From Archaeoglobi archaeon (GTDB lineage Archaea > Halobacteriota > Archaeoglobi > Archaeoglobales > Archaeoglobaceae): a DNA stretch of 34,941 bases. The position numbers and the translations under genes were made by a program. How positions within the stretch are numbered: the first letter of the stretch is position 1; each line of letters starts with the position of its first letter. The notes under the pieces were generated by a model. The model saw only the letters and a list, made by a program, of their open reading frames with translations. It had not been told where the DNA came from and did no database searches. Positions 15,666 through 24,920 of the stretch are shown here, piece after piece. The stretch covers positions 1-34,941 of the forward strand of contig JAPDIX010000006.1 of the NCBI GenBank assembly GCA_029259345.1. The letters are read 5' to 3'.

Positions 15666-15675
15666 GGTGAATAAT

Positions 15676-17652
15676 ATGGAGGTAAAGAAGATTTGTGTTC
15701 TCGGCGCTGGAGCAATGGGTAGTGGTATTGCTCAAGTTTGTGCTACCGCGGGCTATGAGGTTTGGGTAAGAGATATAAAGCAGGAATTCCTCGACAGGGG
15801 CAAGGCTGGTATCGAGAAGAACTTGCAGAGAGCCGTGAGCAAGGGCAAGATGACTGAAGAGAAGGCAAAAGAGATTCTCAGCAGGATACATTTCACCCTC
15901 GAAATGGAAGAGGCTGTGAAAGATGCCGATTTGGTTATTGAGGCTGTGCCAGAAATAATGGATTTAAAGAAGCAGGTTTTCGCAGAAGTTCAGCAGTATG
16001 CAAAACCTGAGTGTATATTTGCGAGCAACACCTCTGGTTTGAGTATCACCGAGCTTGGAAACTCAACCGACAGGCCAGAAAAGTTCCTCGGTTTACACTT
16101 CTTCAATCCACCACCAGTAATGGCTCTGGTTGAGGTAATAAAGGGTGAAAAGACGAGTGATGAAACAATAAAGTTCGGTGTGGAGTTCGTGAAGAGTATC
16201 GGAAAGGTTCCTGTTGTAGTTAAGAAGGACATTGCAGGGTTTATTGTTAACAGAATTCTTGTGCCGTATCTGGTTTTGGCGATTGATGATGTGGAGAAGG
16301 GAGTGGCAACCAAAGAGGAAATTGATGCAACGATGATGTACAAATACAGCCTCCCGATGGGCCCAATCGAACTGTCTGATTTTGTTGGGCTGGACATCCT
16401 CTACCATGCGGGTCAGCAGTGGGACATCGTTCCGCCATCAAAGCTCCTTGCTGAGAAATTTGAGGCAAAAGAACTTGGGATGAAAACGGGTAAGGGATTC
16501 TACGACTGGAGTGCAGGAAGACCAAAGATACCTCAGGAGCTGGCTGGGAAGTACGATGCATTGAGATTGATGGCTCCGATGGTCAATATCGCTGCCGACA
16601 TTATCGCAATGGATGTTGCAGAACCAAAGGATGTTGATACGGCAATGAAGCTCGGAACGAATATGCCAAAGGGTCCATGCGAGCTCGGTGATGAAATTGG
16701 CCTTGACGTTATCCTCTCAAAGGTCGAAGAGCTTTACAAGGAGAAAGGTTTCGAAATTCTAAAACCATCCGAGTATCTCAAAAAGATGGTTGCCGAGGGT
16801 AAGCTTGGAGAGAAGAGTGGCGAAGGATTCTACAGCTATGGAAAGGGAGAAATGACCTTCAAGAATATTGAAGTTCAGAAAGATATTGAGAACAAGATTG
16901 CAAAAGTTATTATAAACCGACCTCAGAGACTGAACGCCCTTTCTCCAGAAGCTCTTGATGAACTGTTCGATGCGTTCAGGATGCTCGAGAAGGATGATGA
17001 GGTTAGGGTTGTAATTGTGACTGGCGCGGGAGATAAGGCCTTCTCGGCTGGTTTTGATCTTCAGACTGCGATGCAGGATCCATCCGGGTTGGCTCCAGCA
17101 AACTCGATGATGCTTGCAGCAAAGGGTCAGTGGGTTTTCACGCAGATAGAGAGATTTCCAAAACCTGTCATTGCCGCAATCAATGGATACGCCTTTGGCG
17201 GTGGATGTGAACTTGCGATGGTATGTGACTTCAGGATCATGAAAAAAGGTGCAAAAATCGGTCTAACAGAAGTAAGTCTCGCACTGATACCCGGATGGGG
17301 TGGAACTCAGAGACTTCCAAAGCTCGTGGGGATGACAAAGGCAAAGGAGATGATAATGCTTGCAAAAAGAGTAGACGCTGATGAGGCGGAAAGGATTGGA
17401 CTCGTAAACAAAGCGGTTGAATCTGAGAAGTTTGAAGAGGAGGTTATGGCACTGGCAAAACAGCTTGCCGAAGGCCCACCAATAAGCTTGAGAGCGGCTA
17501 AATATGCGATCAACTTTGGCTATGAACTGCCTCCTGAGATCGGACAGGCTATAGAAGCTGCATACTTCGGAATCGCAACTTCAACTCAGGACGTAATGGA
17601 GGGTGTTTCAGCATTCTTCCAGAGAAGGAAACCGGAGTTCAAAGGAAAGTAA
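15676..17652 (+). CDS. Fused 3-hydroxyacyl-CoA dehydrogenase / enoyl-CoA hydratase
   Basis: The 658-residue bifunctional enzyme performs two middle steps of beta-oxidation. Residues 1-180 are the NAD-binding domain (KKICVLGAGAMGSGIAQVCA), with the dehydrogenase signature ASNTSGLSITEL and LGLHFFNPPPVMALVEVI. Two C-terminal 3HCDH helical domains follow to about residue 390 (KDIAGFIVNRILVPYLVLAI; ELGDEIGLDVILSKVEELY). The rest is a crotonase-fold hydratase: INRPQRLNALSPEALDEL, VVIVTGAGDKAFSAGFDLQT, the oxyanion region AAINGYAFGGGCELAMVCDF and EVSLALIPGWGGTQRLPKLV, with a catalytic glutamate. The order (dehydrogenase then hydratase) is the reverse of bacterial FadB and is the archaeal arrangement. 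The ATG at 15676 follows GAGGTGA with a 5-base spacer. Confidence 0.95.
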   Translation: MEVKKICVLGAGAMGSGIAQVCATAGYEVWVRDIKQEFLDRGKAGIEKNLQRAVSKGKMTEEKAKEILSRIHFTLEMEEAVKDADLVIEAVPEIMDLKKQVFAEVQQYAKPECIFASNTSGLSITELGNSTDRPEKFLGLHFFNPPPVMALVEVIKGEKTSDETIKFGVEFVKSIGKVPVVVKKDIAGFIVNRILVPYLVLAIDDVEKGVATKEEIDATMMYKYSLPMGPIELSDFVGLDILYHAGQQWDIVPPSKLLAEKFEAKELGMKTGKGFYDWSAGRPKIPQELAGKYDALRLMAPMVNIAADIIAMDVAEPKDVDTAMKLGTNMPKGPCELGDEIGLDVILSKVEELYKEKGFEILKPSEYLKKMVAEGKLGEKSGEGFYSYGKGEMTFKNIEVQKDIENKIAKVIINRPQRLNALSPEALDELFDAFRMLEKDDEVRVVIVTGAGDKAFSAGFDLQTAMQDPSGLAPANSMMLAAKGQWVFTQIERFPKPVIAAINGYAFGGGCELAMVCDFRIMKKGAKIGLTEVSLALIPGWGGTQRLPKLVGMTKAKEMIMLAKRVDADEAERIGLVNKAVESEKFEEEVMALAKQLAEGPPISLRAAKYAINFGYELPPEIGQAIEAAYFGIATSTQDVMEGVSAFFQRRKPEFKGK

Positions 17653-17670
17653 AATTTTCTCCCTTAAATT

Positions 17671-17679
17671 TTTAAAAAT
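17671..17679 (+). promoter_or_regulatory. Possible TATA box for etfBA
   Basis: TTTAAAAAT lies about 50 bp before the etfB ATG, in a 76-bp gap containing T runs (TTTTT at 17686-17690). The geometry allows a short leader with the GGAGGTGG ribosome site, so etfBA may have its own promoter as well as read-through from the dehydrogenase gene. Confidence 0.4.
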
Positions 17680-17728
17680 AGGAAGTTTTTTATTCAGCCT
17701 TTGTCATGGTGGGGTTGGAGGTGGTTGA

Positions 17729-18472
17729 ATGAAAATTATAGTGCTTGCAAAACACGCCCCCGACCCGGAGTCAGAGATTAGTGTTGCAAGCGATGGCAAG
17801 AGCATCAGCCAGAGCGGGCTCGTTTATGATATAAACGACTGGGATAGATATGCAGTAGAGGAGGCAATAAGAATAAAAGAGGATAAAGGCGGAGAGGTTG
17901 TTGTAGTTGGTGTTGGAACCAACTGTGATGATACACTGAGAAAATGCCTTGCAATGGGAGCAGATAGGGCAATAAAAATCCCGGTTGATACATCTCTTGA
18001 CGCCTACACGATTGCAGAGGTTATAAAAGAGGCAATAAAGGATGAGCAATTTGATATGATTTTTGCAGGTTTAATGAGTCAAGACCTGAACAACGCACAG
18101 GTTGGTGTTTTGCTGGCTGCAATGTTAGACTTACCTGTAGCAACGGCAGTGACCGAGCTTAAGGTTGAGGACGGGAAGGCAATCGCAAGGAGAGAACTGG
18201 AGGGTGGATATCTTGAAGAGGTGGAGCTTCCAATACCATGTGTCGTTACCGTCCAGAGCGGTATAAATGAACCAAGATACGTTTCAATCATGGGTATCAA
18301 GAGGGCAAAGTCGAAGGAGATGAAGGAAGTCAGCGTTGCACCAAGCATCTCAACTCTCGAAATCGAAAAAATGTACCTCCCGCCAGTCAAGAAGGCGGAG
18401 ATGATTGAAGGTGACCCATCACAGATAGCCCAGAAGTTGATTGAAATCCTGAAGGAGAGGGGGTTGATATAA
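17729..18472 (+). CDS. etfB: Electron transfer flavoprotein beta subunit
   Basis: This 247-residue EtfB-family protein starts MKIIVLAKHAPDPESEISVA. It has the central region AVEEAIRIKEDKGGEVVVVG, followed by DTLRKCLAMGADRAIKIPVD. The nucleotide-binding loop is FAGLMSQDLNNAQVGVLLAA, and the family signature near the C-terminus is CVVTVQSGINEPRYVSIMGI. With EtfA it accepts electrons from acyl-CoA dehydrogenases and passes them to a membrane quinone reductase. The loop reads SQDLNNAQVG rather than the more usual D-G-D-T-x-Q-V/T-G, so whether it binds AMP or a second, bifurcating FAD cannot be settled by eye. A GGAGGTGG ribosome site precedes the ATG, and the stop overlaps the etfA start (TAATG). 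Confidence 0.95.
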   Translation: MKIIVLAKHAPDPESEISVASDGKSISQSGLVYDINDWDRYAVEEAIRIKEDKGGEVVVVGVGTNCDDTLRKCLAMGADRAIKIPVDTSLDAYTIAEVIKEAIKDEQFDMIFAGLMSQDLNNAQVGVLLAAMLDLPVATAVTELKVEDGKAIARRELEGGYLEEVELPIPCVVTVQSGINEPRYVSIMGIKRAKSKEMKEVSVAPSISTLEIEKMYLPPVKKAEMIEGDPSQIAQKLIEILKERGLI

Positions 18473-19428
18473 TGAAGGTGTTCTGTGTTGCTGAATATAG
18501 ATTTGATGAGCTTAACCCGCTCAGCATCGAGCTGCTCAATCTTGCCAACCAGATCAAGGGAGACGGGACGGCTGAGGCAGTTGTGATCGGTAAAGATGTT
18601 GGCAAGTATGCCGAGGAGCTTGCAAAATATGCGGACAAGGTCTGGAAGGTTGAGGATGATAGCCTCGAGAACTACACACCCGACCTCCATGTTGATGTTC
18701 TGTCGCAGCTCACCGAGAGAGAGAATCCCGACTTAATTCTTGTAGGTAATACCGCTCAGGGTGGAGAATTTGCCCCCTATCTCGCAGCAAAGCTCAACGC
18801 TCCAATTGCCACAGATGTTGTAGCAGTTGATGTGAGTGATGGTGTTAAGGTGTCAAGATATCTAATGCAGGGCAAGCTCATGGTTGATCTGAAGCTCAAA
18901 TCAACACCCTGTGTCCTGACAATCAGACAGGGCGTATTCAAAGAAGGATCAGAGGTTGGTGGAGAAATTGTTGATGCTGGAATCAAACCATCCAAGGAAT
19001 CAAAGAGGAAGTTCGTTAGCTACATTGAACCAGAGGTTGGAGAAGTTGACATTACACAGGCTGATATAATCGTCTCAGTTGGTAGAGGTATTGAGGACGA
19101 GTCGAACATAGAGTTGGCAGAGGAGCTAGCCGATCTGCTGGGTGGCGTTGTGGCTGGAAGCAGGCCAGTTATAGATAACGGATGGTTGCCAAAGGATAGA
19201 CAAGTCGGTATTTCAGGAAAAGTTGTGAAGCCAAAGCTTTACCTTGCTCTCGGTATTAGCGGTGCCTTCCAGCATGTCATGGGTATGAAAGACAGCGAAC
19301 TAATTATTGCCATAAACAAAGACCCAGAAGCGCCTATATTCGGAGTTGCACAGTATGGCGCTGTAGCGGATTTGTTTGATGTCGTTCCCGAGTTGATCGA
19401 GAAGTTGAAGGAGATTAAAGGAGCTTAA
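18472..19428 (+). CDS. etfA: Electron transfer flavoprotein alpha subunit
   Basis: The 318-residue EtfA has an N-terminal nucleotide-binding-like domain (MKVFCVAEYRFDELNPLSIE; PDLILVGNTAQGGEFAPYLA). The C-terminal FAD domain shows IIVSVGRGIEDESNIELAEE, GGVVAGSRPVIDNGWLPKDR, QVGISGKVVKPKLYLALGIS, and GAFQHVMGMKDSELIIAINK followed by D-P-E-A-P-I-F. These match the FAD pyrophosphate and isoalloxazine contacts of the family. No N-terminal ferredoxin extension is present. It is coupled to etfB by a TAATG overlap. The gene ends inside the perfect 14-bp palindrome described below, which likely terminates the operon. Confidence 0.96.
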   Translation: MKVFCVAEYRFDELNPLSIELLNLANQIKGDGTAEAVVIGKDVGKYAEELAKYADKVWKVEDDSLENYTPDLHVDVLSQLTERENPDLILVGNTAQGGEFAPYLAAKLNAPIATDVVAVDVSDGVKVSRYLMQGKLMVDLKLKSTPCVLTIRQGVFKEGSEVGGEIVDAGIKPSKESKRKFVSYIEPEVGEVDITQADIIVSVGRGIEDESNIELAEELADLLGGVVAGSRPVIDNGWLPKDRQVGISGKVVKPKLYLALGISGAFQHVMGMKDSELIIAINKDPEAPIFGVAQYGAVADLFDVVPELIEKLKEIKGA

Positions 19429-19450
19429 GCTCCATAAATTTTATTTAAAA
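19420..19450 (+). terminator. Hairpin terminator at the etfA stop
   Basis: The 14-bp perfect palindrome GGAGCTTAAGCTCC (19420-19433) contains the etfA stop codon and can fold as a 5-bp stem with a TTAA loop. It is followed by ATAAATTTTATTT. The same A/T-rich stretch has a CTTTTT run on the minus strand just after the microprotein stop at 19456, so the site may end transcription from both sides. Confidence 0.45.
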
Positions 19451-19455
19451 AGATT

Positions 19456-19551
19456 TTAAGCTAACTGTAACTGCAACAACAGAAGGGCCAGAGCAACAGC
19501 TGATAAAACGAGCAAGTCTTTTATTTCGATAACCGGTTTGGCCTCTGGCAT
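19456..19551 (-). CDS. 31-residue hydrophobic microprotein, unrecognised
   Basis: The minus-strand frame runs ATG (19551) to TAA (19456-19458) and encodes 31 residues: a charged start MPEAKPVIEIKDLL, followed by about 17 hydrophobic residues (VLSAVALALLLLQLQLA) up to the stop. It should be a single-span, tail-anchored-like membrane protein. Support for translation is unusually good for so small a frame: AGGTGA at 19558-19563 with a 6-base spacer, and a strong TATA box (TTTAAATA, 19585-19592) placing the transcript start about 12 bases ahead. It sits between etfA and dsrO on the opposite strand. It could be a small subunit of a membrane complex, but no family is recognised and no function is proposed. 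Confidence 0.6.
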   Translation of the reverse strand: MPEAKPVIEIKDLLVLSAVALALLLLQLQLA

Positions 19552-19584
19552 GATTTTTCACCTAATATTAATAGGGTCCCATTG

Positions 19585-19592
19585 TATTTAAA
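19585..19592 (-). promoter_or_regulatory. TATA box of the microprotein gene
   Basis: On the minus strand this reads TTTAAATA, preceded by an A-rich BRE-like GGAAAAAAG. The expected start site is near 19563, just ahead of the ribosome site and the ATG at 19551. The rest of the gap toward dsrO (19600-19730) is A/T-rich and shows only a 12-codon frame from 19640. Confidence 0.55.
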
Positions 19593-19735
19593 CTTTTTTC
19601 CTATAAATAAATGAAAATCTTATAATTACTATTATAATCATGGAGAAGCCGAGTAAATTTATCACAATTTTCTTTTAGAAGCATGACCCAAATTAACATT
19701 AACCTCCAGTAAGTGGAAAGGAAAAAAACAAAAGG

Positions 19736-19743
19736 TTAATATA
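19736..19743 (+). promoter_or_regulatory. TATA box for the dsrOPMKJ operon
   Basis: TTAATATA is preceded by A-rich AAAACAAAAGG (BRE-like). A start site near 19765 would leave a leader of about 50 bases before the dsrO ATG at 19817, which has a proper GGAGGA ribosome site. A second weaker candidate is AATATACT at about 19749-19756. Confidence 0.5.
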
Positions 19744-19816
19744 AGCCCAATATACTCCCTCTGAGAAATTAGAAACATACTCCATTGGAATAAAAATGAA
19801 ATCTGGAGGAATAAAC

Positions 19817-20623
19817 ATGATGTCGAGACGTAGATTTCTGATACTGGCGGGAGCAGCGACTGCAGGAGCTATTTTAACCCCACAGATTTCTGCAAAAACC
19901 CAATTTGTCGAATCACCAGAAGAAGTAGAGTCCAACAGGCGCTGGGCAATGGCTGTTGATGTTGACAAGTGCACTGAATGCATGGAAGAGCTGATTGCCA
20001 AAACAGGAGATGAAAAAGTAAAACCGCCGTGTGTTGTCGCATGTGACAAAGAGAACAATGTTCCTGAGTTTGAGGAGAAAAGGTTTGATCCGCAATGGAT
20101 GAGGATAGCCAAACTCAAGCTGGAAAAGCCAGTAAATGCAAAGGAGTTCTACATTCCACTTATGTGCAACCATTGCGAGAACCCACCATGTGTTCAGGTA
20201 TGCCTGACTAAAGCCAGCTTCAAGAGGCCTGATGGAATTGTAGAGATAGATATGCACCGCTGTATTGGATGCAGATATTGCATGATAGCCTGCCCATACG
20301 GAGCAAGAAGCTTCAATTTCCGTGACCCGAGAGAAGGGCTTAAGGAGGTAAACCCGAATGTCCAGATGAGGACTGAGGGTGTGGTTGAGAAATGCACCTT
20401 CTGCGTACACAGGATTGATGACGCGATTGCAAAGGGAGAAGAACCTATTCCAGCGTGCGTTGAGGCCTGCCACAAGTATGGAAAGGGAGCACTGGTGTTT
20501 GGGAATTTAAAGGATCCAAACAGCGAAATTTCAAAGATTCTGAGAGAGAACATCGTTGTTCAGCTTAGAGCCAATCTTGGAACTGACCCGCACGTTTTCT
20601 ACACCAAGCTTGGAGGTGAGTGA
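19817..20623 (+). CDS. dsrO: DsrO-type periplasmic iron-sulfur protein (Tat-exported)
   Basis: The 268-residue ferredoxin-like subunit of the DsrMKJOP (Hme-type) complex has a twin-arginine signal, SRRRFLILAGAATAGAILTP, so it is exported folded with its clusters. Four cysteine groups are visible: CTECMEEL...PPCVVAC, CNHCENPPCVQVC, CIGCRYCMIACPYGA, and CTFCVHRID...PACVEAC. These would hold up to four [4Fe-4S] clusters between the DsrJ haems and membrane DsrP. The ATG at 19817 is chosen because GGAGGA ends six bases before it and the signal then begins properly; an upstream in-frame ATG (19796) would add seven residues ahead of the ribosome site. It is the first gene of the operon, in the order O-P-M-K-J known from Archaeoglobus rather than the M-K-J-O-P of bacteria. 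Confidence 0.92.
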   Translation: MMSRRRFLILAGAATAGAILTPQISAKTQFVESPEEVESNRRWAMAVDVDKCTECMEELIAKTGDEKVKPPCVVACDKENNVPEFEEKRFDPQWMRIAKLKLEKPVNAKEFYIPLMCNHCENPPCVQVCLTKASFKRPDGIVEIDMHRCIGCRYCMIACPYGARSFNFRDPREGLKEVNPNVQMRTEGVVEKCTFCVHRIDDAIAKGEEPIPACVEACHKYGKGALVFGNLKDPNSEISKILRENIVVQLRANLGTDPHVFYTKLGGE

Positions 20624-21814
20624 ATGGCGGTCGAGTTTAAGAAGATTGAGGGCGACTCGATCCAGTATATCGCCTTGGTCATAATCCTTGCAGTTGCTAC
20701 CGGTGCAGGTTTTTATGCTTATATTCTCGACCATGAAATCGGTGGGCTTAACGGACTGAGCAACAGAGTGCCTTGGGGCATTGTCAACGCTGGAATCCCC
20801 TACTTCATTGGTCTGAGTGCAGGCTCGCTTATAGTCTCAGCTCTGGCTGGAGTTTTTAACATAAAGAAGTACAAAGTCTTCAGTAGAATTGCTGCATACA
20901 TGGCAGCAGCTTGGATCATTGCTGCAATTCTGAGCATCGCACTCGATATCGGAAAGCTATACCATTTCATGAATGCAGTCAGATACTTCAATCTGACCTC
21001 AATCTTCTCGTGGAACGCCTTTCTGTATTCAAGCTATTTCGTAATCTGTTCAATTTACCTGCTGGTTCAGTTTGAGGAAATGGAGAGAGCAACAAGATTC
21101 ATGGCAGGCTTGGCTGTTTTCTGGGCGGTTCTGGTTCACAGCGGTACTGGGGCAATCTACAGCTTTATGTATTCCAAAGAGCTTTACCATTCTGCACTGA
21201 CACCACCAATGTTCATCGTCTGTGCCATAACTTCGGGTCTCGGTCTATTGCTGGCTAACTTATACTTCACCTTCAAGTTCACAAACAGAGAATTGGATCC
21301 GTCCCTCATCAGAGGCCTTGGCTTAATCTTTGCGGGGCTTATGATGGTTCTGGGCTACTTCCTCGCCGTTGAAGGGCTGGAGAAAGGCTACATCCCCGGA
21401 CTTCACGAGGCGGTTCAGTTTGTATTCCTCAATCCCGGAACCGGAGTTTTCTGGAGCTTCTGGCTGCTCGTCGTGTTTGGTATTGCGATCCCAATAGTAA
21501 TAATACTCTACCCCAAAACCGGATACGACCTCCGCTGGATTTCAGTAGCAGGTATTCTCCACGCTGCATTGGTGTTCGCAGAGAGGTTCTATCTCATCGT
21601 TCCGGGACAGGTTTTCCCAGAAGAATATCTCCATGGTTACGAACTTAAATCTCTCCATACCCTCGAAGGCTATGTTGTTTCCTATACACCAACGATATTC
21701 GAGTGGCTTCAGGTAATCGGACTGGTTGCCATGGTTTATCTGGTCTACGTGGTCGGAGTTAAACTGTTCGCACTGATTCCTGAAAGGGCAGTTGAGGAGG
21801 TGGTAGAAGAATGA
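20624..21814 (+). CDS. dsrP: DsrP (NrfD-family) integral membrane subunit
   Basis: The 396-residue polytopic protein of the NrfD/PsrC family has about ten hydrophobic segments, including YIALVIILAVATGAGFYAYI, VPWGIVNAGIPYFIGLSAGS, AAYMAAAWIIAAILSIALDI, FWAVLVHSGTGAIYSFMYSK and GIAIPIVIILYP. The conserved charged sites typical of quinone interaction (HSGTGAIYSFMYSKELYHSA and AERFYLIVPGQVFPEEYLHG) are present. It likely oxidises menaquinol and delivers electrons to DsrO. The start follows directly on the dsrO stop, with GGAGGTGAGTGA as ribosome site, and the end overlaps dsrM by ATGA. It contains no cysteine cluster of its own. Confidence 0.92.
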   Translation: MAVEFKKIEGDSIQYIALVIILAVATGAGFYAYILDHEIGGLNGLSNRVPWGIVNAGIPYFIGLSAGSLIVSALAGVFNIKKYKVFSRIAAYMAAAWIIAAILSIALDIGKLYHFMNAVRYFNLTSIFSWNAFLYSSYFVICSIYLLVQFEEMERATRFMAGLAVFWAVLVHSGTGAIYSFMYSKELYHSALTPPMFIVCAITSGLGLLLANLYFTFKFTNRELDPSLIRGLGLIFAGLMMVLGYFLAVEGLEKGYIPGLHEAVQFVFLNPGTGVFWSFWLLVVFGIAIPIVIILYPKTGYDLRWISVAGILHAALVFAERFYLIVPGQVFPEEYLHGYELKSLHTLEGYVVSYTPTIFEWLQVIGLVAMVYLVYVVGVKLFALIPERAVEEVVEE

Positions 21815-22812
21815 TAGGAGTGATATTCGGCGTCATTGTGCCATACATCGCCGTCGCGATATTCGTCGTAGGGGTTATCTACAGATTTATCAACTGGGCG
21901 AACAGTGCTGTTCCACTAAAGATACCCACCACAGGAGGGCAACAGAAATCACTTCCATTCATAAAAAGAACGATCTACGACAGATTCGATTCCCCCTATA
22001 CGTGGTGGGAGACTGTTGGAAGAATGATTCTTGAGATATTCATGTTCAGAAGCTTGCTAAAGAATACGCGGTATTACCTCGACAGAGTCTCTCAAAAGGA
22101 TGCGCGCTGGCTCTGGCTTTTTGCAATCCTTTTCCACTACTCGCTACTCCTCGTACTTATCAGGCACTCAAGATTTTTCCTTCAACCTGTTCCAGAGTTC
22201 GTAGAGATGCTTAGCGAAATTGAAGCATTTAAAGGAGTGTTCATCCCATCAGTGTATGTTTCAGGCCTAGCAATAGTCGCAGGATTGTTTTTGTTGTGGC
22301 TCAGGAGAATTTTCCTGTCAAGGGAGAGAACTCTCAGTCTTCCAAGTGACCACTTCGCCTTAATCCTGCTTCTCGCCATAACGATTAGCGGAAACATCAT
22401 GAGGTATTTCTTCAAGGCAGACCTTGAAAAGGTCAAGGAGTTGCTGATGAATCTGATGGTATTCGATGTCGGAAAGGCTGTTGCAATTGCTGACAGCATT
22501 GAACCGATCTTCTACGTCCACTTCGTTCTTGCAAGTTTCCTTCTTGCCTACTTCCCCTTCAGCAAGCTCATGCATGCAGGAGGTGTTCTCTTCACACCAA
22601 CAAGAAACATGCCCAACGACAACAGAGCGAGGAGGCACGTAAATCCGTGGGACAGTGATCCTTCAGTGCCAATACTGGCAAAAGGAATTACGGTGGGCGG
22701 AAAGACTTTCACATCAAAGAAGCTCGATTGGGACACTTACTACAGCATGTACACCGATCAGCTTGATGAAATTGCAGAAAGCGATTACAAGATAGCTCCT
22801 GAGGAGTTGTGA
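21811..22812 (+). CDS. dsrM: DsrM b-type cytochrome subunit
   Basis: The 333-residue protein resembles the gamma subunit of nitrate reductase (NarI). About five membrane spans are visible: IGVIFGVIVPYIAVAIFVVG, WLFAILFHYSLLLVLIRHSR, YVSGLAIVAGLFLLWLRRIF, HFALILLLAITISGNIMRYF and YVHFVLASFLLAYFPFSKLM. Histidines in FHYSLLLVLIRH and in the last span (VHFVLA, LMHAGG) are candidates to hold two haems b. In the complex DsrM oxidises menaquinol on the membrane and passes electrons to cytoplasmic DsrK. The soluble C-terminus (about 65 residues) contains NDNRARRHVNPWD and presumably docks DsrK. It overlaps dsrP by four bases, and dsrK starts 10 bases after its stop. Confidence 0.92.
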   Translation: MIGVIFGVIVPYIAVAIFVVGVIYRFINWANSAVPLKIPTTGGQQKSLPFIKRTIYDRFDSPYTWWETVGRMILEIFMFRSLLKNTRYYLDRVSQKDARWLWLFAILFHYSLLLVLIRHSRFFLQPVPEFVEMLSEIEAFKGVFIPSVYVSGLAIVAGLFLLWLRRIFLSRERTLSLPSDHFALILLLAITISGNIMRYFFKADLEKVKELLMNLMVFDVGKAVAIADSIEPIFYVHFVLASFLLAYFPFSKLMHAGGVLFTPTRNMPNDNRARRHVNPWDSDPSVPILAKGITVGGKTFTSKKLDWDTYYSMYTDQLDEIAESDYKIAPEEL

Positions 22813-22822
22813 GGTGATTGTG

Positions 22823-24490
22823 ATGGAAGAAATGCCTGAAAAGATTGAGATAAGACAAAGATTTCCAGAATGGAGAGAAATGCTAAAACCAGTTAAAAAA
22901 TTCGAAGAGGGAAGGTTAAGCTACATTTCCCTGCCCAAGCAGGTGGATTCAGAGTTCTTCAAAATGCCCTTTGGTGATGTGGAAAGAGACCTCCATGATC
23001 TAAAGCTTCCTGAAAACTGGAAGGAACTTTTCCTTGAGGCGATGAAGGAGACTCTGGAAAAGAACAGAGCATTCAAGCTTTTCATGGACATATGTGTTAG
23101 GTGTGGAGCATGCGCCGATAAATGCCACTACTACATAGGCACAGGCGACCCTAAGAACATGCCAGTTGGAAGGGCTGAACTCATCAGATCTGTTTACAGA
23201 AGATATTTTACACTTTCAGGCAAAATATTTGGCAAATGGGCTGGAGCAAGGGAGCTAACTGAAGATGTGGTGAGGGAACTCTACTACTATGCCTATCAGT
23301 GTTCTCTCTGCAGGAGATGCAGTCTTTTCTGCCCCTACGGCATTGATACTGCAGAAATTGTCTGGTGGCTGAGAAGAATTCTGAGCAGAATTGGCCTGAA
23401 TCAGAGATTTATGACAATTTCAATTGAGGCGTCAGCGAGAACTGGCAATCACCTTGGTCTACTTCCGGGAGGTATGGCAGGTGCCATACAGCAGGGACTT
23501 GAGGAGCTTAAGGACGTGACAGGCTTTGATCTGCACACATACATCAACAAGAAAGGAGCAGATGTACTCTTTGTCGCCCCCTCTGGAGATTACTTCGCCA
23601 CACCGCACTGGTTCGTTATGCTCGGCTATCTTTTGCTCTTCAACGAGCTGGAAGAGAAATATGGATTAACGGTTACCTGGTCAACGTATGCGAGTGAAGG
23701 GGGCAACTTTGGTACATTCCACAGCTATGAGGCTGCGCAACTGCTTAACTCCAAAATCTACAAGGAGGCTGAGAGATTGGGAGTTAGCTTCATCATTGGT
23801 GGAGAGTGCGGGCACATGTGGAGAGACAAACACCAGTTCATCAACACCATGAATAATCCACCAAAGAATGAGGAATGGAAGAGATTCTGGGAGAATCCAG
23901 ATCTGGGAGAGCTTGCTGAAGGACTTAGAGGTGTTAGATTTGACAGCTACGCGTCTGGAGAGCATGGATGGATTCACATTCTTGAGTTTACCGCCGCACT
24001 AATCGAGCATAAGAAAATCACCTTGGACAAAAGCAGAAATGACCACTGGGCAGCGACATACCACGATCCGTGCAATGTTGCGAGGGGAATGGGATTAATT
24101 GAGGAACCAAGATACGTCCTGAGGAACGTCATGAACAAGTTCTACGAGATGCCGGAGCACACGATAAAGGAGAAGACCTACTGCTGCGGTGCTGGAGGAG
24201 GCTTGCTTGCAGACGAGATTATGGATCTCAGAATGAGAGGAGTAATGCCAAGGATGATGGCAGCGAGGCATGTTTACAAGAAGTACGGAGTGAATATACT
24301 CCTTACCCCCTGTGCAATTGACAAGGCTCAGTTCCCGCATGCCCTCGAATACTGGAAGATCCCCATTGAGGTCGGAGGGCCAATGGAGATGGTTGGAAAT
24401 GCTTTAGTTCTAACAGCGTTCGGTGAGAAACCTGAAGACAGGCAGTATGATCTGAGAGGTGAACCGCTAAATAAGGAGGAGGGTGAGTGA
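22823..24490 (+). CDS. dsrK: DsrK, HdrD-like iron-sulfur catalytic subunit
   Basis: The 555-residue cytoplasmic subunit is related to heterodisulfide reductase HdrD. Two ferredoxin motifs lie at CVRCGACADKCHYYIGTGDP (about residues 91-101) and CSLCRRCSLFCPYGIDTAEI (about 160-170). The C-terminal CCG region has YHDPCNVARGMGLIEEPR, KTYCCGAGGGLLADEI and LTPCAIDKAQFPHA, expected to hold the noncubane [4Fe-4S] site used for disulfide reduction. It is thought to reduce the DsrC trisulfide, or an equivalent, coupled to menaquinol oxidation. The ATG at 22823 is favoured by GAGGTGA at 22811-22817; GTG codons at 22814 and 22820 are in frame but poorly spaced. The stop overlaps the ribosome site of dsrJ. 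Confidence 0.94.
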   Translation: MEEMPEKIEIRQRFPEWREMLKPVKKFEEGRLSYISLPKQVDSEFFKMPFGDVERDLHDLKLPENWKELFLEAMKETLEKNRAFKLFMDICVRCGACADKCHYYIGTGDPKNMPVGRAELIRSVYRRYFTLSGKIFGKWAGARELTEDVVRELYYYAYQCSLCRRCSLFCPYGIDTAEIVWWLRRILSRIGLNQRFMTISIEASARTGNHLGLLPGGMAGAIQQGLEELKDVTGFDLHTYINKKGADVLFVAPSGDYFATPHWFVMLGYLLLFNELEEKYGLTVTWSTYASEGGNFGTFHSYEAAQLLNSKIYKEAERLGVSFIIGGECGHMWRDKHQFINTMNNPPKNEEWKRFWENPDLGELAEGLRGVRFDSYASGEHGWIHILEFTAALIEHKKITLDKSRNDHWAATYHDPCNVARGMGLIEEPRYVLRNVMNKFYEMPEHTIKEKTYCCGAGGGLLADEIMDLRMRGVMPRMMAARHVYKKYGVNILLTPCAIDKAQFPHALEYWKIPIEVGGPMEMVGNALVLTAFGEKPEDRQYDLRGEPLNKEEGE

Positions 24491-24491
24491 A

Positions 24492-24920
24492 ATGTATCAC
24501 AAGCAATACGTGATTCCCCTCATCCTGATTTTCCTTGCTGGGTTCTTCACACCCTACTGGTACAACGCAATGGCTGAAAGCTTTGGTTATGTACCTGAAA
24601 TGAAAAAGCCAGCGGGCGAGTGTGTTGAAAACAAAGACTGGATGGCAGCAAACCACATGCTACTGCTTCAGCAGTGGAGAACTCAGGCAATAAGGCACGG
24701 GGCAGAGGGTGGAAGAATCTATCACAGCTCTACGACCGGTTTGGAGTACCATGCCTCTACCAATACTTGCTGGGAATGTCATGAAAGCAAGGAGGAGTTC
24801 TGCGACCAGTGCCATGACTACGTGGGCATCCATCCTGAATGCTGGGACTGCCATTACACTCCCAGCATCGAAAAGCCACACTACCAAGGGACTGATACTC
24901 TCAGCAAGTTTTTCTCCTAA
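24492..24920 (+). CDS. dsrJ: DsrJ triheme c-type cytochrome
   Basis: The 142-residue protein has one N-terminal hydrophobic helix ([18 protein letters not shown]) acting as an uncleaved anchor, and a domain outside the membrane. Three haem-binding CxxCH motifs are seen: CWECH (93-97), CDQCH (104-108) and CWDCH (117-121). The conserved Cys44 in [15 protein letters not shown] matches the residue reported as the unusual haem ligand in DsrJ of Allochromatium. The ATG at 24492 is preceded by GGAGGGTGAGTGA. An in-frame GTG at 24483 would begin inside dsrK. It is the last gene of the operon, and its stop overlaps the convergent metallo-hydrolase gene by four bases. Confidence 0.95.

Follow-up and report, generated by a model that had tools for sequence, protein, structure and literature searches.

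The window, the whole stretch of 34,941 nucleotides that was analysed, carries a frame of 31 codons on the minus strand. It is convergent with etfA and lies head-to-head with the dsrOPMKJ operon. The features of the locus are:

18472-19428, plus strand: etfA, the convergent neighbour
19456-19551, minus strand: microprotein gene, 31 codons plus stop, ATG at 19551, product MPEAKPVIEIKDLLVLSAVALALLLLQLQLA
Residues ~10-30 of the product: single C-terminal transmembrane helix
19558-19563, minus strand: ribosome binding site AGGTGA, six bases 5′ of the ATG
19585-19592, minus strand: TATA box TTTAAATA of the microprotein gene, with a purine-rich (A/G-rich), BRE-like flank upstream, GGAAAAAAG
19619-19642, minus strand: triplet-periodic (NAT)n element, CATGATTATAATAGTAATTATAAG, which lies upstream of the TATA box and begins 50 nt before it
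19736-19743, plus strand: candidate dsrO TATA box in the context AAAAGGTTAATATAAG, read from the sequence and conserved within the genus as well as in G032
19796-20623, plus strand: dsrO, the divergent partner, NF045797 above cut-off
19817, plus strand: likely start of dsrO, preceded by GGAGG, with the Tat-type N-terminus MMSRRRFL
20624-21814, plus strand: dsrP, assigned from its position and an NrfD Pfam match, below the cut-off of its own NCBIfam model
21811-22812, plus strand: dsrM, DsrM NCBIfam equivalog model above cut-off
22814-24490, plus strand: dsrK, DsrK NCBIfam equivalog model above cut-off
24483-24920, plus strand: dsrJ, DsrJ NCBIfam equivalog model above cut-off

The 31-codon minus-strand frame, its TATA box, the AGGTGA and the one hydrophobic helix had been described in a sequence-only reading of this DNA, and all four were found again exactly. 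AlphaFold2 predicts one helix for residues 10-30 of the window microprotein, with a mean pLDDT of 89 and ~96 in the helix core. Across the stop codon of etfA lies a perfect palindrome, GGAGCTTAAGCTCC (19420-19433, plus strand), which is probably a terminator hairpin; Rfam gave a weak, sub-threshold match to the histone stem-loop on it.

Syntenic regions of relatives were gathered by a whole-genome search with the neighbouring etfA, and beside etfA a frame of the same length was found in G003, G005 and G002. A profile (A2) built from these three copies and that of the window found matches in the genus members without the gene beside etfA, namely G001 (E 4.5e-15), G006 (1.6e-14) and G004 (2.3e-14). 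The microprotein is thus present in 7/7 sampled Archaeoglobus species whose assemblies contain the dsr operon (G000-G006); G007 was left over, its assembly being 54% complete and giving no dsrO match. Among the seven genus members, the 28-codon core contains neither indels nor stops. Most pairs show saturation or near-saturation at the synonymous sites of the core (dS >1.3 or infinite), with dN at 0.13-0.45. For the closer pair G000-G003, dN/dS is 0.45, and G004 and G006 are near-identical. In the pairs examined, third codon positions make up 13-22 of the 28-36 differences. Under neutrality ~11 of the 28 residues are expected to be kept, whereas 17-21 are kept relative to the window copy at 29-36 substitutions (13 for G003); in simulations with 30 neutral substitutions, at least 17 of the 28 residues were kept in 0.13% of runs and at least 20 never.

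We regard the microprotein gene as established by this sequence comparison, and we are nearly certain that the 31-codon frame is a genuine gene. The comparison with relatives that the sequence-only reading had called for showed conservation of the frame, the start, the TATA box and the amino acids at low dN/dS. The proposal of a membrane microprotein gene is therefore strongly supported. It is hardly credible that the frame is open by chance and that the conserved DNA is a non-coding element, such as a promoter or the 3′ end of etfA. High DNA-level conservation near the TATA box would fit such an element, but the codon-position bias, the near-saturated synonymous sites and the core without indels do not. 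Moreover, members exist without etfA nearby, and distant paralogs were recovered by a protein profile. The comparison across relatives thus already contradicts a non-coding origin.

The conserved association of the microprotein gene is its head-to-head arrangement with dsrOPMKJ, anchored by dsrO rather than etfA. Its earlier placement between etfA and dsrO is correct for the window, but does not hold as conserved context, since etfA adjoins the gene in one sub-group only. The gene is divergent from dsrO in G000, G001, G003, G004, G005, G006, G032 and G046, a set that comprises six genus members (A. fulgidus included), JdFR-41 and SJ3.Bin61. On the other side of the gene, four different genes occur among these carriers: in G001 (which we take to be probably A. 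fulgidus DSM 4304), G004 and G006 an acyl-CoA dehydrogenase-like gene stands there instead of etfA; G032 has another gene again, neither etfA nor acyl-CoA dehydrogenase-like; and G046 has a frame that by inspection resembles a metallo-beta-lactamase-fold protein. G046 also has the most divergent copy, MGLAVDRLDIVLLTLITLLLLAIQFAFI. In G002, the order and orientations of etfA, the microprotein gene and dsrO are kept, but ~15 kb separates the microprotein gene from dsrO, and the gene and its promoter are retained beside etfA. The microprotein gene has thus survived the loss of dsrO adjacency. Part of this intervening G002 stretch (L034 1200-6915, etfA-forward) carries LIV-type ABC transporter-like genes, a hydrolase gene and a RelE/antitoxin-like (toxin-antitoxin-like) pair. 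A dsrO search, followed by a search for the microprotein motif with 0 false matches in 408 kb of control DNA, led to the named records Archaeoglobus sp. UBA230, S5B4_HD70, GB_MAG2_100, S5B9_HD70, JdFR-41 and SJ3.Bin61 as carriers of the microprotein. In the window (15667-24920), genes for a 3-hydroxyacyl-CoA dehydrogenase/enoyl-CoA hydratase fusion and etfBA, which belong to beta-oxidation, are located directly before the dsr operon. Such beta-oxidation or acyl-CoA dehydrogenase-like genes before dsr hint that Dsr may be connected to electrons from fatty acids.

The microprotein represents what appears to be a new, undescribed family of Archaeoglobaceae proteins of 28-32 aa with a single transmembrane segment. 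Its members share this length, a helix that runs to the C-terminus and the motif D-x3-L-x4-L-x-LL-x2-QL, or more fully E..D...L....L.LL..QL. D12, L16, L21, L23 and Q27 are the same in 14/14 sequences, while L24 and L28 are nearly invariant; the conservation moment for one helix face is weak and no more than suggestive (permutation p = 0.08). A group of paralogs of 29-32 aa (for example MKAVVEVKDVVMLSVVALGLLALQLGILG) adjoins a PaaI-type thioesterase gene in G001, G002, G004 and G006, and G050 carries a related copy of 28 aa. The family was found in three Archaeoglobaceae genera only. When 394 genomes of the phylum were scanned with a profile, no members emerged outside Archaeoglobaceae apart from one weak match (E 0.006), which lies inside a 217-residue open frame. 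Searches of Pfam, NCBIfam and PDB gave zero family matches to the microprotein, a PDB profile search gave no meaningful match and a plasmid search gave nothing. The open-licence papers that we searched contain no mention of the family, and it may be described elsewhere.

All 14 family members harbour the sequence TTTA[A/T]ATA. Its distance from the start codon is constrained, at 31-35 nt in the dsr-linked Archaeoglobus copies, with an internal ATG taken for G001, G004 and G006, and 21 nt in most paralogs and in G032, G046 and G050. The 21-nt spacing is what leaderless mRNAs would show, and the paralogs and more distant members look leaderless by sequence. The AGGTGA noted earlier is present in the window but is not a family trait: it is kept only in G000, G003 and G005, and G002 has another purine-rich stretch in its place. 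Furthermore, a (NAT)n run starts 41-50 nt before the TATA box in 13 of the 14 copies, covering both microprotein subgroups (L104-L109, L111, L113, L133), with dinucleotide-shuffle p values from <0.001 to 0.06 for the individual runs. The site is unique in the 35-kb window, where the reversed control gave 0 matches. Genome-wide, the pattern was only mildly enriched relative to the reversed control, and the other sites vary in their spacing to a TATA box. Similar sites are found 5′ of the gene for a 453-aa putatively secreted protein (L157, L168, L172) and 5′ of small winged-helix-like genes (L158, L159, L166). Because the (NAT)n run is shared by paralogs with unrelated neighbours, it argues for common regulation. 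A Fur box was considered for this element and found unsupported. A second, Ile/Met-rich micro-ORF (MIIIVIIRF...) is likewise disfavoured: G004 and G032 have in-frame stops while the DNA beyond is still conserved, and the frame would sit before the TATA box. A DNA element is therefore preferred.

Tiny single-helix proteins encoded beside a respiratory or transport complex of the membrane are also found elsewhere (PMC4325964, PMC10654040): CydX (37 aa) with cytochrome bd oxidase and KdpF (29 aa) with KdpFABC, and the microprotein fits them in size and helix length. The cydX and kdpF genes lie inside their operon on the same strand, unlike the microprotein gene, which is divergent, has its own promoter and has paralogs elsewhere. 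No Pfam or NCBIfam model, including the CydX and KdpF families, matched the microprotein. In nearly all dsr-linked carriers, the membrane redox complex encoded head-to-head with the microprotein is DsrMKJOP, or Hme, the menaquinol-oxidising complex. Its operon encodes five subunits, none of which is the microprotein, and many such operons occur without a microprotein gene.

Tail-anchored proteins of 67-83 aa encoded in MinD-like operons 3′ of etfA in other Archaeoglobaceae genera (L012, L015, L017, L022, L029) occupy a similar place, and their C-terminal helix also ends at the stop. They differ in belonging to another operon and in their N-terminal LM(D/E)D(D/G)E motif. Homology between the two groups was rejected, as neither profile detects the other group, and so was a link to MinD, as the MinD-like genes of the window genus are located elsewhere. 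Such proteins beside the MinD-like ATPase (L037 971-1174 and L038-L041, etfA-forward) have a C-terminal R(V/I)(I/L)DxxI motif plus helix; the one that was tested had no Pfam match. It is possible that they are a membrane anchor for the MinD-like ATPase.

For the microprotein itself, we tentatively favour, at somewhat below even chance, a role as a single-helix accessory or stabilising component of a redox complex in the membrane, for which DsrMKJOP is the first candidate. The gene has a promoter of its own, which stands back to back with the dsrOPMKJ promoter. The peptide would insert as one helix (residues ~10-30) and place a few charged residues at the edge of the membrane on its N-terminal side. 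Via D12, L16, L23 and Q27 the helix may pack against the membrane part of the complex, DsrP/DsrM of DsrMKJOP being the first candidate partner, and thereby stabilise or tune the complex in the manner of CydX or KdpF. We infer both partner and activity; the paralogs would act with a different partner in the membrane. This accessory role is favoured because of the dsrO linkage seen in three genera, together with the size and the helix of the peptide, and we also count for it the conserved frame under purifying selection in seven species and the invariant D12, L16, L21, L23 and Q27. In addition, a microarray study reports constitutive, high expression of dsrMKJOP in A. fulgidus (PMC3949148), which we count on the same side.

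The distribution of the family points in more than one direction. The microprotein gene is adjacent to dsr in g1, g9 and G046, and many DsrMKJOP genomes are without it: DsrK occurs without a detectable microprotein copy in genera g2, g3, g4, g5, g11 and g12, mostly near a DsrO homolog. In several of these other Archaeoglobaceae genera (L134-L143, L150, L151, L153), a dsrC-like gene (MPELEVKGKKLTLDEDGFLQDWEEWDEEVA...) occupies the dsrO-divergent slot. G050 has a microprotein copy and no DsrK above cut-off. Since paralogs lie away from dsr and dsr operons occur without the gene, the family is not purely a part of Dsr. Against an accessory role in Dsr we also count the paralogs beside the PaaI-type thioesterase gene, the weak helix-face moment and the fact that the output of a divergent gene would not obviously match the amount of complex. 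Among PDB entries no chain matched the microprotein, and the closest DsrO-like chains are other enzymes. The stronger proposal is that a 30-residue single helix missed by annotation forms a sixth component of the archaeal DsrMKJOP, specific to this lineage, and that its paralogs, which share the dedicated promoter element, act with another membrane partner; this seems rather unlikely.

Close behind the accessory role ranks a regulator or a protein with another partner. A plausible form of this is a small membrane protein of regulatory or stress type rather than a subunit: the family would form a small (NAT)n-driven regulon and modulate membrane enzymes, transporters or lipid state, and the proximity to dsrO would then reflect only stable gene order in one clade. 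Paralogs away from dsr with the same promoter layout and (NAT)n run, the G050 and thioesterase-linked copies without a dsr link and the occurrence of the dsr complex elsewhere without the gene are all consistent with this, but across three genera the gene on the other side has changed at least three times and the dsrO linkage has lasted. It is improbable that the microprotein is instead a membrane partner of fatty-acid/acyl-CoA electron transfer (ETF, acyl-CoA dehydrogenase, thioesterase). Its neighbours include etfBA in one sub-group and an acyl-CoA dehydrogenase-like gene in a second, and the paralogs adjoin the PaaI-type thioesterase gene; however, G032 and G046 have neither an ETF gene nor an acyl-CoA dehydrogenase-like one as convergent neighbour, and dsrO is still divergent there. 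Because Archaeoglobus has many acyl-CoA genes, such neighbours are likely to arise by chance. A type I toxin-like hydrophobic peptide under antisense RNA control would resemble TisB or Ldr in size and hydrophobicity, but the stable position over three genera and the conserved polar residues D12 and Q27 make this very improbable; we saw no repeated or mobile context and no antisense RNA gene, and Rfam gave nothing relevant.

DsrMKJOP is believed to pass electrons from menaquinol on to sulfite reduction in the cytoplasm. If the microprotein is part of it, an overlooked small subunit would matter for the purification, structure and reconstitution of the complex. G001 offers two candidate microprotein genes, at 457.3 kb and 2029.8 kb. 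The locus also illustrates that a real archaeal gene of 31 codons can be recognised by comparison alone. Its conservation beside the dsr genes, under selection, suggests that the microprotein may be an overlooked accessory piece of the sulfate-respiration machinery.
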